DNA of 64,000 nt from Hyaloraphidium curvatum (Eukaryota > Monoblepharomycota > Hyaloraphidiomycetes > Hyaloraphidiales > Hyaloraphidiaceae). Where the stretch lies: the NCBI GenBank assembly GCA_025558095.1, contig JAIVFI010000001.1:1192501-1256500 (forward strand). Direction: 5' to 3'. The notes below the pieces were generated by a model that had not been told where the DNA came from, made no database searches, and was given only the letters and a program-made list of their open reading frames with translations. A program made the position numbers and the translations under genes. Of this stretch, positions 19,982-28,025 are shown piece by piece; within the stretch, counting starts at the first letter, position 1; every line of letters starts with the position of its first letter.

Positions 19982-22900
19982 TCACGTTGCCGAGAACCCC
20001 CACCCGGGCTTGACGCCCTTGCGCTGTCCCGCCCCGCCGTACTGCATGTCCCACTTCCTGAGCTCCGCGAGGCTCTCCATATCGTCCGTTAGCGACGCCG
20101 GGATCTCCTTGAGCGCGATCTCAAAGTGCTCCTTTGTCAGCAGCCGCTGCGATCCGCCGGGGCTCTGCGCCTGTGCCGTGCCGTCGCCCACGACCGAGCT
20201 CCACTCGTCGATCTCGTCCATCTCCTTGAGGATCCGCGCGCGGAGCTCCGGGTCCTCGGCGGCAGGGTCCGTGAGCGGCGGCAGGCCGTGCCTCGCTTCG
20301 CGGACGACGTTCTCCTTGACGCTGGCCAGCGCCGCCGAGATGCAGAGGTTGCGGAGGTCGGAGCCGCTGTAGAGCTCCGTGCGCTTGGCGAGGTCCACCA
20401 GCGAGATTGAATCGTGTAGCTGCTCGTCCTTGAGGTGGACCCCGAGGATCTTGGCCCGCGACTCCTCGTTCGGCAGGTCCACTAAACGAGCTGTTCAGAA
20501 ACGAACAACAGAGGACGGACACGACGCAGCCCACCGAGGATCCGCCGCGGCATCCGCCTCAGGATCGCGTCGTCCAGGTCGAACGGCCGGTTCGTCGCGG
20601 CCATGATGATGACGCCGCTGTTTCCGCCGCCGATCCCGTCCCACTCGCCCATGAACTCGTTCATGACCTCCCTCCGGCTGGCAAAGGTGTCGCCCTTCCG
20701 GCGGCCAAACAGCGCGTCGACTGCGGAAGCGACATGGATCAGACTCGTCGACAGGCAGGCCGATCGGACGCCGACCTTCGTCAATGAACACGACGCAGGG
20801 CGCCAGCTTCCTGGCCAGGGTGAAGACGGCCTTGACGTTCTTCTCGCCCTCGCCGACGTACTTGTCGAACACGTCCGACAGGGCCACGTTCATGAAGCGC
20901 GCGCCGCCCGAGCGGGCGACGCACTTGGCGAGGAAGGTCTTTCCGGTGCCGGGCTGTGGGAGGAGATCACAATGGAATGTCAGACAACGGACTTGCCCGA
21001 CGGCGGCGCCGACCACCCACCGGCCCGAAAAGCAGCACCCCGGTGAAGCTCGACTTCTGCAATATCCCGTGCGAAAACAGCTTGGGCCTCAGCAGCGGCA
21101 GCGTCACCAGCGTCTGCAGCGCCAGCTTGGTCGACGGCGGCAGGATCAGGTCCGAAAAGCCGACGCCGATGGCCGAGGGATCCACCACGCACGAGAGCAG
21201 CTTCTTCTCGTACGTGTTGGGCTTGTACCCGCGCTCCTGGAGGAAATCCCTGATGGCCCCCTGGTCGTTCCGCCCCTCCTCCGCTCCCGAAGGAGGGTAC
21301 GCCTGCTGCTGCGCCGCCCGCGGCGGGGAAACCTGCGCCTCCTCCCTGTTGTCCACGGTGTCCGCCAAGGCGGCCAGCCCGCCGTCCCCCCGCCCCCCCG
21401 CCGCGCCGCGCGATTCGAGGTGCGCCTCGGCCTCGCGCCGGTGCCGCGCGGCGATCCGCGCTTCGTCCTTCTGCTCCCTGTACTCGGGGTCGTTCATCCG
21501 CTCGTTCTCGATGCCCTCCATCAGGTGGCGCAGGGACAGGGTGGCGGGGACCGAGACGGGCGCGGCGCCGCCGAGCAGCGCCTCGTGCCGCAGCCGCACC
21601 CCGTTGGCGTTGTTGACCGTCTCGCGGATGAAGCTCGGTTCCCACAGCTTGGCCCTGAGCGCGCCCAGGAACGCCGCGAGCTCCGCGTCCGTGGGCTGCA
21701 GGTCCCCGGACCCGCCCGAGACGAGCTCGGCCCACCGCTCGGCGCACATGTCCGCCGTCCGCGAGCCCACGAACGATGCGACGTCGTCCCACGCGCACCC
21801 GAACCGCTGGAACCCGCGCGCCAGCAGCGCGTCCTCGGCCCCGGTCCACCCCCTGCTCCCCTGCGCCCCGCGGAACACCTTGGCCGCGTCGGCGCCCCCG
21901 AGCAGCGCGCCGAGCGGGTGCGCCTCGAGCGGCCGGCCGCGGTCCGAGCACTCGATCGCCGTGGAGCGCCAGTTGATCTCGGCGACGCGGCGCTGCTGGT
22001 CCAGCCGCATGGCGCGCTCCCATTCCAGGAAGCGCGATTCGACGGCGGCGGGGGAGTCGTCGTCGCTGCGCGGGATCGAGGTCGTGGTGTTGGATGTGAG
22101 GGGGTGCTTGGGGAGCGGCGGGGGAGAGAGGTTGATGGTCGCCACGGGGTTGCTTTTGGAGGAGAGGATGTGGCGGTAGGGGAGCAGGCGGAGCTCGTCG
22201 TCGGCAAAGCCGATGCCGGCCTTGGGCGTCTTTTCCCCGGCGAGGATGGCGCGCAGCTCCTCGGCGCCTTCGATGGCCGCCTTCTGCGCCTTGTACTCGT
22301 CCTCGGAGCTGACGGCCGGGTCGATGGCGGAGTAGATCACGGAGGGGCAGGCGCCGGCGGTCAGGACCACGGGCAGACCGGCGCCCCGGAGGCCGTCGAC
22401 GCAGCCCAGGACCGATTCCAGTATCTGCGGGCCGTACGGCCGCGAGCGCTCCGTGTCAAAGTCGTTCAGGTCCTTGAGGTAGACGACCAGGGGAGCTTTC
22501 GAGCCCCTGACGCGGGCGAAGCGGGCCAGGTGCGAGGCCAGCGCCGCGCAGGCCGCGGACAGATCGCCCGCCGCGGCGGCCGCGGATTCACCGGGAGGCA
22601 CGGCATCTTGGCTGTCGTGCCTATGGGGCGCCCGGTCGCCCTGGCGGTACCCACGGTGAGACGGGGCCGGCACCGCCGCCCTCTCGGGCCTGGGGACGTC
22701 GTCCGCGGGGGCCACCCTGCCCCCGCTCCACGACATGTCGGAGGCGGGCGGCTCCATGTCCACGTCCGGCTCGTCGTCGGGGTGCGCGTCGTCGAACGAG
22801 CTGCTGTAGCCGCCGTACCGGTCGTCCTCGTCCTCCTCGCCCTCCTCGTACGGCTCGCTGGCGGCGGTGCCGTCGTCATGGGCCGCGATACGCCGGTCGT

Positions 22901-23570
22901 CGTAGTGCGAGAGGCGGAACACGCGGGCGCCGAACGTGAGCGGGCGCGGGCGGAAGGCCGGGTCGTCCAGGGCCGCCTCGTGGGAGCCCCGCCCGGGCTC
23001 GTGCACGTAGTCATACAGGTCCTTCAGATCGAGGGACAGAAAATCGGCGCCCGCGGCATGGGCCGTCCGCCGCACCAGGTCCTCCAGGTAGTACACGGCG
23101 CCGGGGTGCGGGCACGCCACGACCAGCGCGTTTGCGGGCGGCGGCGGGCTCCGGCCGGGGTCGAATGCCGAGAGCAGCTTGACGTGCAGCCGCTGCGCGG
23201 CGTGCTCGTCGACGTACGGCTGCGGGAAAGAAGGCGGCGCGCCGTCGTCGAACGCCGCGTACTTCGGGGAGAAGAACGGGTCGCCTCCGCCGGGCGGCAC
23301 CGCACCCGATGGCTCTTTCGCGCCCTTCGCCGCTGCGTTCGATGTCCGGAACAGCGCGTAGCCGCGGATCTGCCGCGCATTCGGAGACATCGCGATCGGC
23401 CGGCCCTGTGGGAGTGAGGGGCAAGCCGAGAATGAACGGCCGGAAACGCAGCCGGATCGGGCCGCAGCGGCCGAAAGAGCCGCGATGCGGAGAGTCCATC
23501 GCGTCTGCGGGAAGATCCGGACGACCGAATCGGCCGCGAGGGCCCGAACGGGGCCGGAGACGCGACGCAT
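19982..23570 (-). CDS. Mitochondrial-type AAA ATPase (Msp1/ATAD1-related) with SANT/Myb-like segment
   Basis: Four exons, 23570-21021, 20953-20776, 20720-20535 and 20481-19982, join in phase to about 1137 residues. The Arg/Ser/Ala-rich first 60 residues resemble a mitochondrial targeting peptide. A long low-conservation N-terminal region follows. Near residues 573-620 is a SANT/Myb-like helix-turn-helix with Trp at the expected start (R-G-W-T-G-A-E-D). The AAA domain starts near 795 with the Y-E-K-x-L-L-S-C-V-V block. Walker A (F-G-P-P-G-T-G-K-T) is split by the first intron, Walker B is C-V-V-F-I-D-E-V-D, and the arginine finger region is N-R-P-F-D-L-D-D-A-I-L-R-R. This matches a fungal group of large Msp1-like ATPases, which extract or remodel membrane proteins. 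The SANT-like part lies in the same uninterrupted exon as the rest of the N-terminus. Confidence 0.82.
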
Positions 23571-23683: not shown

Positions 23684-24936
23684 CTACCATGTAACCATTG
23701 AGATAGCATTCGAGGCACCTTGCTTGACGTAGGAAGCCGCCGCCGACGCTACACCCCAGAAGGTCCTTCTCGCCTTAACGGTCGCTTCGGCCCTTGCTCT
23801 AAAGATACGTTGTAGCTCCTTAAGTTGCTTGGAGATATCCTCCTTGTTCTTGATCATTGAGCGGATTTCCTTGAGCTTCTCCTCAAGCTCGTCCTTTTCC
23901 TTCTTCTTCTTGGCCTTCTTTGACTCGGAGCACCACCAAGACCTGAGATTGGGAATCTGCTTCTCGATCTCTTGAATCCGTGCTTCCAGCTCTTCAGGGG
24001 AAGCTCCTCCATCGCGCAACAGAGCATCCAGCTCATCGATCTTGGTGCTAAGCACGTTGATAGCGTCCTCAAGTTGCGTTCGCGTAAGCACTTGGATTGG
24101 CAACTGATCAACATCAAGGACTTGTTCAGAGGGCCGTTTGAGCCACTCCTGCATTCTTTCCATCCGGTCCTCCCCAGTCGGAATGATGATGTCGGGCTCG
24201 AAAGCTTTGACAAGGTTCTCCATAAACTCCGTGCTTCGTTTCTCTTGTTTCGGTGTGTTGAGCTTCGTGAGGACAACAGCCAATTCGGTCTGGTGCCTGA
24301 ACAAGGCCAAAATGATCTGCAGGTACTCCTCAGCTTCCGGGAGCATTCTGTCCGTTCCATCCGTCACGAAGCAAATTTTGGAGATGCGTTTCGTGCTCTT
24401 TCTTAGGAAATCCACGGTTCGCTGGATCAGTTGCTCACGCACGCCCTCTTCGACGTTTGTGTCAAGAAAACCAGGCATGTCTGCGATGTAGTACGGCCCT
24501 AAAGATGAAACAACGACGTCGCATCAATGTTCTCAACTGGAGCAGCAATCAACTTACGTCCGTCGATGATGATGGCTTGCATGTTGGCTTCGGCCGTGTC
24601 CGACTTTCCCGTGTTCCTAGTCGGATCCTCTTCCCGCAGGAGATGAATCAGGGACGTCTTGCCGCTTCCGGTCATGCCAAAAAGCAGAGTGCACTCGGGC
24701 ACCGGGAACTCGGATGAAGGAACTGTTGGATTGGTCAGCGCGAAGCGACAAAGCAGTATCGGCACTCCCACCCGGACCGCCTCGACTGCCTCGCTCGGAT
24801 GTGGCGCCGTCCTCATCTGCATGAAGCCATTGGGGCCGCGAAGCACGCGTACGCAATCGCATAGAGAGACCCTGTGAGATCTTCGGGCGCGGCACAGCGG
24901 AAGGCGCGACATACGGATCGGGGCACCGCTGAGCAT
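23684..24936 (-). CDS. AIG1/GIMAP-like GTPase with C-terminal coiled coil
   Basis: Two exons, 24936-24558 and 24498-23684, joined by a 59-base intron with a GTAAGT donor, encode about 397 residues. The P-loop G-M-T-G-S-G-K-T lies near residue 87. The next exon supplies a D-M-P-G-F-L-D-T switch II, and a T-K-L-N sequence near 225 may be the G4 site (the expected Asp is an Asn). The last 120 residues are a Lys/Glu-rich coiled coil (helices rich in E-L-E and K-K-K-E-K). The end is mildly hydrophobic (A-S-A-A-A-S-Y-V-K-Q-G-A-S-N-A-I), possibly membrane-touching. The first about 60 residues are uncertain and the start may be the ATG at 24822. It lies head to head with the CbbX-type AAA gene, whose N-terminus resembles it. 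Confidence 0.65.
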
Positions 24937-25141
24937 GGTCTCAAGAAACCGTGCCGAACGACGGCTCCGTTAAGATCCCCAGGCGCGTTTTCTGCAATTG
25001 TGCGCCGATGATGGCGGCGCAGGCGTTTGCTCGTTCGAAGTCGCGGCATTCAGGGTCCGGCTGAGATGCACACACCCCGGGTTGAGTGCCGAGACGGCCG
25101 TGCTGCAAGCACAGTCCCAGACAAGCGCCCACAGGCGCCAC

Positions 25142-26994
25142 ATGCCGCCGCGGCTCTCGGGCAAAGCCTCCGCTGCTGCTGCAGTGCTTTGCGCCGTGTC
25201 ATCTTTCGTCGAGTGTGTGCCGCTCAGCGAGATGTCAGCCGTGTGTCGCGACACGGTGCTGCTTGTGGGAGATGGACACCGATCCCTGAAGGATCTCGTC
25301 TGCTCTCTACGCGGAGAAGAGTCAGAGAGTGTGGACGGTCGACACGATGACGAGTTCGGTCCTAAAGAGGACCATGTTATCCTCAATAGTCGGTGCATTT
25401 GGCCAGTAAAGCGCTCTTCATCTGACGATGACATAGGAAACGCGGTGAACATCGTCACCCACGGAATTGAGGGATCCATCGCTCGTGTTGATGAGCTGAT
25501 GAAATATCTGCGGGCGACGCCACGGATCATTACTCGGGTTTACTTTTGCCAAGACCTTTCACACCGCCTGAGTTCCTCGACTGAAGCGAATGTCGGCGCT
25601 TTGCTTGGATTGTTCCGAAGCCGTGTGCATTTTGGTCTCATCATTGCCGGGGTCACGAGCCAGAAGGCACGGACACGGGCTGAGGAACTTGCACAAACGC
25701 TTCGAAGCAAGTTCGATCCCGAAGAAACCATCTTCGCTGGCGAAGACACCATCGAAGAGCTGAGAAGTGCTCTGATGGTAGAGCCGACTCGAATGATGCT
25801 CGTGGCCAATCTCCCGTCGCTCTCGCTCGAGAACACCACCAGCCTCAAGGTCCGCATCGAGCAGCTGGAGAAGGAGAGGGACCTGCTCGCGAAGGAGCTG
25901 CGAATTGCAAAAGACGAGGTGTTCAAATTGAAGCTGGCCCACCCGGTGGACACCTCAGGCGTTGATGTCGACTTGGCACCAGAGCTGAGGGAGCTGCTGG
26001 GCCATGTGGTCGGCATGCGTGCTGTCGGTGCCTCCTGTCTTGCCACGACGAATCCTTCCTGACAGAAAGTGCTCCTCCAACAGCTCAAGAGCGAAGTTCA
26101 GAACTTCTACGTTGCACAGAAAGTGAACGCCCGGCGCCGCACAATGGGAGTTCCCGTCAAGACTCCTCATCCGTCGATTCTCTTTCGCGGAAATCCTGGA
26201 ACGGGGAAAACTAAAGTTGCACGCATTATCAGGGACGTTCTTGTCAAGGTATGATCACAGATTTTTGCCTTTAGTACATTGGCAACTGAGCGATGGCTAT
26301 TAGGCAGGCATACTGCCACCCAATGCGCCGTTCCAAGAGTCATCTCGTGATGATCTTGTCGGCAAGTACATTGGACACACGGAAGCTAATATGGCCATGA
26401 TATTCGAACGCTTGCGCAACGGAGGCGTCCTCTTCATCGATGAAGCCTACCGACTCGTTCAAGCAGATTCCGATAAAGACTTCGGGAAGATTGCTCTTGA
26501 AGCAATCATGACGCAGATGACGAAATCGGACAACAAGATATCATTCATCTTTGCAGGTGATGGCTCGCCGGGGAGACCTGATTGGATGACATCTGACACC
26601 TCCTGCAGGCTACCCGAAAGAGATGGCTCGGATGCTTGATTCCAACCCCGGAATATCGTCAAGGATCTCTTACACCTTCGATTTCGAGGACTACAGTCCC
26701 GCCGACCTGGCAAAGATCTTCCAGCTACACGCCCAGGAGCAAGGCTTCGTCCTCGACGAAGGGACCCTTCCGCCTTCGCGCCTGGCCCAGTGTTTCGAGC
26801 AACACTTTTCGGGAATTCAACGAAGCAGATCGAACGGTCGCCTGGCGGAGCGCCTCTTCCAGCGGACCCAACTTGTGCAGACGAACCGGATTGCTGGATT
26901 GGGCGACGATACGAGCGCCGAGGTCATGCAGACGATCACTCTCAGCGATGTAGAAACCGCCGCGAAGGAGTTGGGAGAGACGGGGAACATTTAG
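25142..26994 (+). CDS. CbbX/CfxQ-type AAA+ ATPase with degenerate GTPase-like N-terminus
   Basis: I read exons 25142-26005, 26066-26248, 26304-26556 and 26609-26994, about 561 residues. The first junction is ambiguous (26018/26070 also keeps phase), and the start could be 24998. The C-terminal AAA+ module has Walker A G-N-P-G-T-G-K-T, the pore-region K-Y-I-G-H-T-E, Walker B G-G-V-L-F-I-D-E-A-Y and the arginine-bearing S-N-P-G-I-S-S-R typical of CbbX/CfxQ ATPases. The first 270 residues follow, block by block, the GTPase encoded on the opposite strand, but the P-loop has become G-D-G-H-R-S-L-K and no D-x-P-G remains, so nucleotide binding there is unlikely. A short coiled coil (R-I-E-Q-L-E-K-E-R-D) links the two parts. 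What it remodels is unknown. Confidence 0.7.
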
Positions 26995-27219
26995 CTCGGC
27001 AGGTGTGTCGTGGGATGGTAATGAACGGCACGACCAGGTGTCCGCGACGGCCCGTGATCCAACAACAAAACTGGCATGCCATTTGCCCGTGACAGAGACA
27101 CCAAACCGCGGAATAGTCCGCGGGAATCAAACCACCTTGCCGCCTCCGGCTGGCGTCAATCGGCCGCCTCGCCGGCGCCTCCGCCGTCCACCAGGAAGTT
27201 CCCCTCCAAATCGAGTCCA

Positions 27220-27880
27220 TCACAGCTCCCTCTGCGGCGTCTGCGTCAGCAGCAGCCCGAACCGCTTCTTGAGGGTGACCCGGTGCCGCGAGTACTTGTC
27301 GTCGGGCGAGAACCGTGCTGCAGACGGAAAGAAGCGAGGTCAGCACCACTCCTCAAACCCATCCCGCCCTCCTCCGCAATCCGGCAGAATGTCTCAACGC
27401 TACTATCCAATCACAGATATGGAGCGCATCTGTAGATTAGCGATACGGAGATGTTTGCTCTCTGCCGCTTAGAGTGGCCCCCGCCGCCATCCCGCCCCGA
27501 AACCCGTAGGAAACGGGGCGGTCGGTGGGGGCTAAATGGCGGCATTCCGGTCCGTCCGCATTCCCACGGGGAGGGCTCAAGATGTCGGCCGGAGGCGGTC
27601 GCCGCCACCTCCTCCGGCCGGCACCCGGGAAGGCCGCGGGCAGCGGTCGTTCCGCACAACCACCTCCACCCATCGCAGCCCCACCACGCTTCCCCACCCT
27701 CCACACGCCCCGTTGCGCCAATCAACTGACCAGGATGCGCGGATTTGGTAGCGTTCCCGTCCGGCGTCAGTTTCTGTCCGGGCAGTCAGCTCCTTCCTCC
27801 GGGGCGAAAGGGCGGCGCGAACCGACCTTGAGCGTGTAGACGCGCCGCCCGTTGGCGTCGAGGTAGTACATCAGGTGCAT
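27220..27880 (-). CDS. NOP10: H/ACA snoRNP subunit NOP10
   Basis: This gene is too split to stand out as an open frame. Exons 27880-27827, 27773-27731 and 27317-27220 join in phase to 64 residues, exactly the family length. The protein begins M-H-L-M-Y-Y-L, has V-Y-T-L-K-K at the first junction, [15 protein letters not shown] across the second, and ends with K-K-R-F-G-L-L. NOP10 binds dyskerin/Cbf5 and is required for pseudouridylation of rRNA and for telomerase RNA in many eukaryotes. The first intron is 53 bases, normal for this genome, but the second is 413 bases and contains strong RNA secondary structure (separate entry). It is transcribed away from the sugar-kinase gene with about 145 bp between the two starts, so the promoter is probably shared. 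Confidence 0.93.
27318..27730 (-). other. 413-base intron 2 of NOP10, six to eight times the local norm
   Basis: The donor is GTCAGT at 27730 and the acceptor TGCAG ends at 27318, with a CTGAC branch-like sequence about 25 bases upstream. Nearly all other introns in the window are 50-70 bases. The extra length contains no coding exon I can support and includes the hairpins described in the next entry. Confidence 0.85.
27387..27543 (-). ncRNA. Candidate intronic H/ACA-type snoRNA
   Basis: Read on the minus strand, 27543-27483 folds into a strong hairpin. An outer 8-bp stem pairs GCCGCCAU with AUGGCGGC and an inner 8-bp stem pairs CCGCCCCG with CGGGGCGG around a 14-base loop. An AGAGCA at 27461-27456 fits the H box (ANANNA). 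A second hairpin follows, with ACAGAU/AUCUGU pairing around 27437-27410. An ACA at 27392-27390, 63 bases after the H box, is in the expected place. Against it: 21 unpaired bases lie between the first hairpin and the H box, and the pseudouridylation pockets are not obvious. The host gene is a core H/ACA protein, which makes an intronic guide RNA plausible but not shown. Confidence 0.35.
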
Positions 27881-28025
27881 CGCGGCGGGAAGGGGGGGAG
27901 CGTCGACTGTTTTTCGCTCGTCAAGTTCGCCAAGGGCTTTCGGAAGGAGCAGCTAGCGCAGGCACCGGCCGGTGGGGGTCATTCGGCTTCGATCGGGCAG
28001 CAACGCCTCCGTTTCCAGCGCATCG

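Follow-up and report, generated by a model that had tools for sequence, protein, structure and literature searches.

The N-terminal domain of an AAA+ protein encoded in the genome of Hyaloraphidium curvatum appears, from its sequence and its predicted fold, to be a pseudoGTPase, a dead-looking domain that has the fold of a GTPase family and has lost the nucleotide-binding motifs. The gene lies in a 64-kb window, that is, the whole stretch of DNA analysed here, which covers positions 1192501-1256500 of contig C1 in a compact genome of 31,925,308 bases and 55 contigs (coordinates without a contig name refer to this window). It forms a head-to-head pair with a GTPase gene of the same family: the two-exon GTPase gene occupies 23684-24936 on the minus strand and the four-exon AAA+ gene 25142-26994 on the plus strand. 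The fusion together with the head-to-head GTPase suggests that the AAA+ protein, a presumed ring-forming chaperone, may remodel that GTPase. An earlier description of the window made from its letters (hereafter, the sequence-only reading) had placed this divergent pair exactly, with frame ends at 23684 (GTPase) and 26994 (AAA+).

The likeness between the GTPase and the N-terminal domain of the AAA+ protein is real and well above chance. For the profile comparison, an alignment of the four other family domains, from which the AAA+ protein itself was excluded, was used as the query of hhalign. The AAA+ N-domain was matched with a probability of 97.8, an E-value of 1.1e-12 and a score of 82.1 over 172 columns, while the shuffle control (n=200) gave a mean score of 13.2, a standard deviation of 2.5 and a maximum of 23.3. 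A blastp comparison of the GTPase with the N-domain gave an E-value of 2e-11. The domain was also found unprompted when GTPase exon 2 was used to search the organism's own genome (E 2.1e-7). At E <= 0.001, the five matches of this search were the exon itself, two places on contig C27, one on contig C5 and the AAA+ N-domain. The reverse search from the AAA+ N-domain returned the GTPase (9.4e-7) and both places on C27 (E < 1e-4); it did not recover the C5 domain, and its match on C38 was at the level of chance (E 0.36). Such own-genome searches score the best candidates, and the counts of family and AAA+ domains given below are those found among these.

The domain's second half, from strand 4 to the GED turn, accounts for most of the similarity, which is far weaker in the first half. 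A Pfam scan of the AAA+ N-domain gave no GTPase match and three weak matches to other families. Meanwhile, structure prediction and a fold search pointed to the GTPase fold; model 1 (295 aa) has a pLDDT of 49, and its fold search is used in a supporting role only. From the homology searches, hhalign and the predicted fold, the pseudoGTPase domain was delimited to 203 aa (25220..25828, plus strand). The sequence-only reading had proposed that the AAA+ N-terminus is a degenerate GTPase copy and had named a pairwise profile alignment and a structure prediction as ways of checking this; the proposal was borne out by both.

The five-domain alignment showed which G motifs have been lost: in the AAA+ copy the Lys-Ser/Thr of G1 is missing, G3 (DxPG) reads RSSS and G4 reads AGVT. 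Its degenerate P-loop GDGHRSLK (25268..25291, plus strand) stands opposite the GMTGSGKT of the GTPase (G1, 24655..24678, minus strand) when the two are read without gaps, as had been done in the sequence-only reading. MAFFT inserts a gap and pairs LLVGDGHR instead; the P-loop is lost either way. The motifs GxxxxGK[ST] and DxPG are absent from every forward frame of 24700-25720, which confirms the loss of DxPG noticed earlier and rejects a P-loop or DxPG hidden in another forward frame. The looser pattern DxxG is found at three positions of the AAA+ frame (25007, 25349 and 25427), and the last occurrence, DDIG, lies near the aligned G3 and not at it. The neighbour GTPase, as already claimed, keeps an intact P-loop, and it also has DMPG at G3 (24470..24481, minus strand, exon 2).

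The AAA+ copy retains AGED (compare TGED) and an arginine after strand 4. The codon of this arginine, in LSHR, lies at 25565..25567 (plus strand) and shares its alignment column with the arginine of GTDR in the GTPase (24347..24349, minus strand). The residue is present in three of the four P-loop members (GTDR, GSQR and VAIR) and missing from the second C27 domain, C27B, which has DPSF. When a profile of three P-loop members was aligned by HMMER to GIMAP7 (3zjc; 21.7 bits, i-Evalue 0.0015), the column fell on the R of GRYTEEE. Schwefel et al. are said to have described R103 of GIMAP7 as a catalytic arginine in 2013. A passage in PMC8066113 states that GIMAP7 stimulates GIMAP2 via dimerisation and a catalytic arginine finger.

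Judged by its motifs and profile scores, the AAA+ protein is a member of the SpoVK/CbbX/EccA clade, and it is assigned to none of the three. Among PDB entries, its core comes nearest to CbbX (3zuh, E 3.4e-34), followed by EccA1 (2.5e-32), and the profile match spans the whole AAA+ and lid. The NCBIfam models gave 164 bits for TIGR02881 (SpoVK), 148 for TIGR03922 (EccA) and 147 for TIGR02880 (CbbX), all below the equivalog cut-offs. Walker A (GNPGTGKT, 26189-26212) and Walker B (VLFIDEAY, 26427-26450) are intact, in agreement with the CbbX-type AAA+ protein seen in the sequence-only reading. The tyrosine of the GY signature at sensor-1, which a part of PMC10659427 gives as a feature of the clade, is present, since FAGYPKEM aligns to LAGYADRM of CbbX. 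A further feature of the clade is an Asn placed four residues ahead of the first arginine finger; in the arginine finger region NPGISSR, the Asn is present, with Ser at +4 and Arg at +6. Prokaryotic contigs were scanned with the AAA+ core, which gave at least 594 stretches and at least 480 relatives, and 80 bacterial loci were kept. An NPG outside Walker A was readable in 66 of these 80; Arg was found at +6 in 66 and at +4 in 9. The suggested analogy to Rubisco activase was not upheld. The own genome gave no hit to the model of the RuBisCO large subunit (PF00016) at E 0.001 (the control matched in 5/14), and the CbbX cut-off of NCBIfam was missed (147 bits vs 459). A role as a Rubisco activase was rejected because no RuBisCO large subunit was found.

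The spliced window GTPase matched Pfam MMR_HSR1 with 32.8 bits, above the gathering cut-off of 21.9. The first C27 domain, C27A, also exceeded this cut-off (26.5), the C5 domain fell below it (18.5) and the AAA+ N-domain gave no match. Weak matches of the window GTPase to TrmE, Der, Era, GIMAP7 and Toc33 were seen as well. The earlier label 'AIG1-like' had to be dropped: an exon-by-exon search of the own genome with the Pfam AIG1 model (PF04548) gave 0 matches (E 0.001), and membership of the GTPase in that Pfam family was rejected. The G4 position of the window GTPase reads TKLN (24257..24268, minus strand) where NKxD is expected, the other motifs being intact. Replacement of this Asp by Asn shifts GTPases towards xanthine nucleotides, and the guanine specificity of the protein is uncertain. 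Further deviations are seen in the paralogues: TRLD and DTPA in C27A, TQAD in C27B, TYNY and DTEG in the C5 domain. To judge from these motifs, the nucleotide pocket seems to be drifting across the whole family; therefore, the description of the neighbour as an active GTPase is an assumption, and the sequence-only reading was not sustained on this point.

Five family domains were found in the genome, namely the GTPase and the AAA+ fusion on C1, two domains on C27 and one on C5. The mutual identity of the P-loop domains is 28-36%. The locus C27:263070-264893 (minus strand) has two consecutive GTPase domains with P-loops and an Ala-rich C-terminal stretch; they probably make up a single tandem two-GTPase protein, joined by a putative splice. 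The C5 family GTPase (C5:753855-754940, minus strand), with DTEG for DxPG, is likewise head to head with another gene (755135-756424, plus strand). The product of this gene, an Ala/Gly-rich protein of 430 aa judged helical by eye, is an orphan: it exceeded no Pfam cut-off, and a search of the own genome found no paralogue. The contigs with matches to the AAA+ core (C1, C6 and C42) differ from those that carry the other GTPase domains (C27 and C5). The C6 gene (C6:850240-852210, plus strand) encodes a CbbX-clade AAA+ preceded by ankyrin repeats and is the sole other clade member found. The C42 match (E 4.6e-5) looks by eye like a classical AAA protein of the CDC48/Yta7 kind.

The gene models behind these results are as follows. 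GTPase exon 1 (24558..24936, minus strand) contains the P-loop. Its start codon is uncertain and may be the M at 24936 or one further on; the protein has 397 aa if it begins at the first M and 357 aa if it begins at M41. The GT-AG intron of 59 nt (24499..24557) is spliced so that IDG comes in frame with the exon encoding DMPG. Exon 2 (23684..24498), whose model is based in part on the own-genome match to paralogues, encodes the second half of the G domain, a coiled-coil-like stretch and a short C-terminal tail. The proposed start codons of the two genes are separated by 205 bp (24937..25141), which may serve as a shared divergent promoter region. AAA+ exon 1 (25142..26027, plus strand) encodes a short leader, the pseudoGTPase domain, a coiled coil and the beginning of the AAA+ module. 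The helical linker at 25835..25939, probably a coiled coil, was placed from helix 232-266 of the low-confidence model. More than one pair of borders is possible for intron 1, with the donor at 26019, 26024 or 26028 and the acceptor end at 26065 or 26069. Exon 2 (26066..26248, with its start at 26066 or 26070) carries Walker A and exon 3 (26304..26556) Walker B. Exon 4 (26609..26994) encodes the GY of sensor-1, the NPGISSR region, the lid domain and the stop. Introns 2 (26249..26303, 55 nt) and 3 (26557..26608, 52 nt) are GT-AG. The GC3 of the two genes is 0.63-0.66, and 24001-28000 forms a GC dip of the window, where the two 2-kb bins have 0.564 and 0.592 and the other 30 have 0.592-0.755. Next to the pair, at 20784-23570, long open frames overlap on both strands (877 aa on the plus and 867 aa on the minus strand). 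Of the two, the minus frame, which has the AAA-like P-loop strand GVLLFGPVGG at its end, is probably the true gene. Two GATA-type fingers were also read by eye in one frame, which, with the Septin matches on five contigs given below, points to a probably fungal genome.

We propose that the pseudoGTPase is a docking module of the AAA+ protein on family G domains and that the ring disassembles the docked GTPase, a reading that we consider plausible, if short of probable. The AAA+ protein would form a ring, like others of its clade, and its pseudoGTPase domain would pair with the G domains of family members, above all with that of the neighbour. According to a part of PMC10659427, members of the clade are dedicated chaperones with narrow clients, and their variable N-terminal domains might recruit substrate; because the N-domain of this protein is a dead-looking relative of the neighbour GTPase, the latter is the obvious candidate client. 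The pairing is envisaged across the nucleotide face, as in a septin-like hetero-G-dimer in which the pseudo half would bind little or no nucleotide. The pseudoGTPase may trigger GTP hydrolysis in its partner, since it keeps the arginine thought to enter the partner pocket in GIMAP7. The ATP-driven ring would pull on the docked GTPase and extract it or dismantle its assemblies, in a manner similar to the remodelling of Rubisco by CbbX. All three steps, docking, triggering and extraction, are inferred. The complete scheme, in which an AAA+ remodeller heterodimerises with its client via a fused client paralogue, donates an arginine in trans and couples the GTP state to ATP-driven disassembly, is unlikely to hold in every part. 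This mechanism has the standing of a good, directly testable hypothesis and not of a result. The clients of CbbX-clade proteins are usually hard to guess, and here the N-domain points to a candidate and to a way of docking that can be tested. If the proposal is true, GTPases of the GIMAP/Toc34/septin kind join the clients of the CbbX chaperone clade, and the protein is a case of a pseudoenzyme paralogue serving as the adaptor of a molecular machine.

The pseudoGTPase frame and the AAA+ exons are taken as one gene on the strength of the reading frame and the junction. The fusion could be only apparent, if the AAA+ exons form a gene apart from the 354-aa frame or if the AAA+ gene is in decay, which we regard as quite improbable. 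It would agree with the in-frame TGA at 26060-26062, which lies inside the proposed intron 1 and terminates the frame unless this intron is spliced, with the ambiguous borders of the intron and with the position of both genes in the GC dip. However, the N-terminal region lies in a single open frame of 354 codons (24998-26062), and not one of 2000 simulated sequences of 1062 nt (first-order Markov) remained open. The tail of exon 1, ELRELLGHVVG, resembles the AAA+ start of the C6 paralogue, ELSGLFTGIVG, and a blastp comparison of the 105-aa junction with C6 gave E 1e-17 over 92 columns starting in the exon 1 tail, much of the score coming from the Walker A region. The intact AAA+ motifs and the clean GT-AG borders of introns 2 and 3 also speak against two genes or decay. 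Retention of intron 1 would yield a pseudoGTPase-linker protein without AAA+.

Several observations weigh against docking on the neighbour. The pseudoGTPase is 25% identical to the neighbour over 104 aa and 28% identical to the C27A paralogue over 116 aa, and a five-domain tree groups it with C27B (support 60) and not with the neighbour; this tree is weak evidence because its supports are only 47 and 60. The local duplication that the sequence-only reading had put at the origin of the pair was accordingly not confirmed, and a recent one is unsupported by the tree. The retained arginine is one of 27 columns common to at least three of the four relatives and stands outside the eight common to all. 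No fusion was found in viral contigs, where the GTPase alignment gave 228 pattern-matching stretches and the AAA+ core one, with 0 relatives in either scan. The GTPase-family profile found none in 4488 frames (>=80 aa, E 10) of the 80 bacterial loci, from which a more distant GTPase domain would escape because the profile is narrow and had no positive control there. The evidence as a whole comes from one eukaryotic genome plus the prokaryotic and viral contig scans. The pseudoGTPase may be an adaptor or regulator only, which binds an unrelated client or a membrane or keeps the ring inactive, its likeness to the neighbour reflecting ancestry without partnership; we find this possible, if somewhat doubtful. 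The equal closeness to a paralogue on another contig fits this explanation, as do the ankyrin repeats, a generic binding module, of the C6 protein and the narrow yet varied clients that a part of PMC10659427 ascribes to the clade. Against it stands the arrangement of two of the five family domains head to head in 31.9 Mb, which looks unlikely by chance, though this is an impression from one genome. A defence or self/non-self module of the NLR or GIMAP type, in which the AAA+ protein would regulate a GTPase that senses or executes, is very unlikely. The distant likeness to GIMAP7, the head-to-head orphan gene of the C5 member and the small size and low mutual identity of the family would suit such a module, but the Pfam AIG1 model has no match in the own genome and the Pfam scan rows displayed for these proteins included no known immune domain.

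In the contigs scanned and the literature covered, a pseudoGTPase ahead of a CbbX-clade AAA+ was not found; the literature was searched by title or abstract start, with subscription journals largely outside its coverage, and this search showed no pseudoGTPase-AAA+ fusion. The protein resembles CbbX (3zuh, 3syk), EccA1 (9lur) and SpoVK in almost the full length of the AAA+ core, including Walker A and B, the GY of sensor-1, NPG..R and the lid, and differs from them in its N-terminal domain (0/4488 frames in the 80 bacterial loci). The AAA+ core of the C6 protein (spliced by eye) is 48% identical to that of the window protein, whereas ankyrin repeats take the place of the GTPase-like domain. GIMAP and Toc34 GTPases pair across the nucleotide face. 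The window GTPase differs from GIMAP7 and Toc33-34 in having no Pfam AIG1 match, and no GTPase of this type fused to AAA+ was found in the searches made. To our knowledge, no septin is fused to a motor. The Septin model matched on C4, C14, C33, C15 and C6 and not at the GTPase/AAA+ locus, with 0/14 prokaryotic controls above the cut-off. A passage in PMC11238149 describes septins as pairing through their nucleotide faces and mentions R-fingers reported for Toc34/159 and AIG1/GIMAP. As far as a part of PMC10731463 goes, one septin partner can be a pseudoGTPase, and class I members (Spn7 type) are proposed to bind no guanine nucleotide. Like the window protein's N-domain, these class I septins are GTPase paralogues with altered G1, G3 and G4, and they pair by the G face with another member, as the pseudoGTPase of the AAA+ protein may do with its neighbour.
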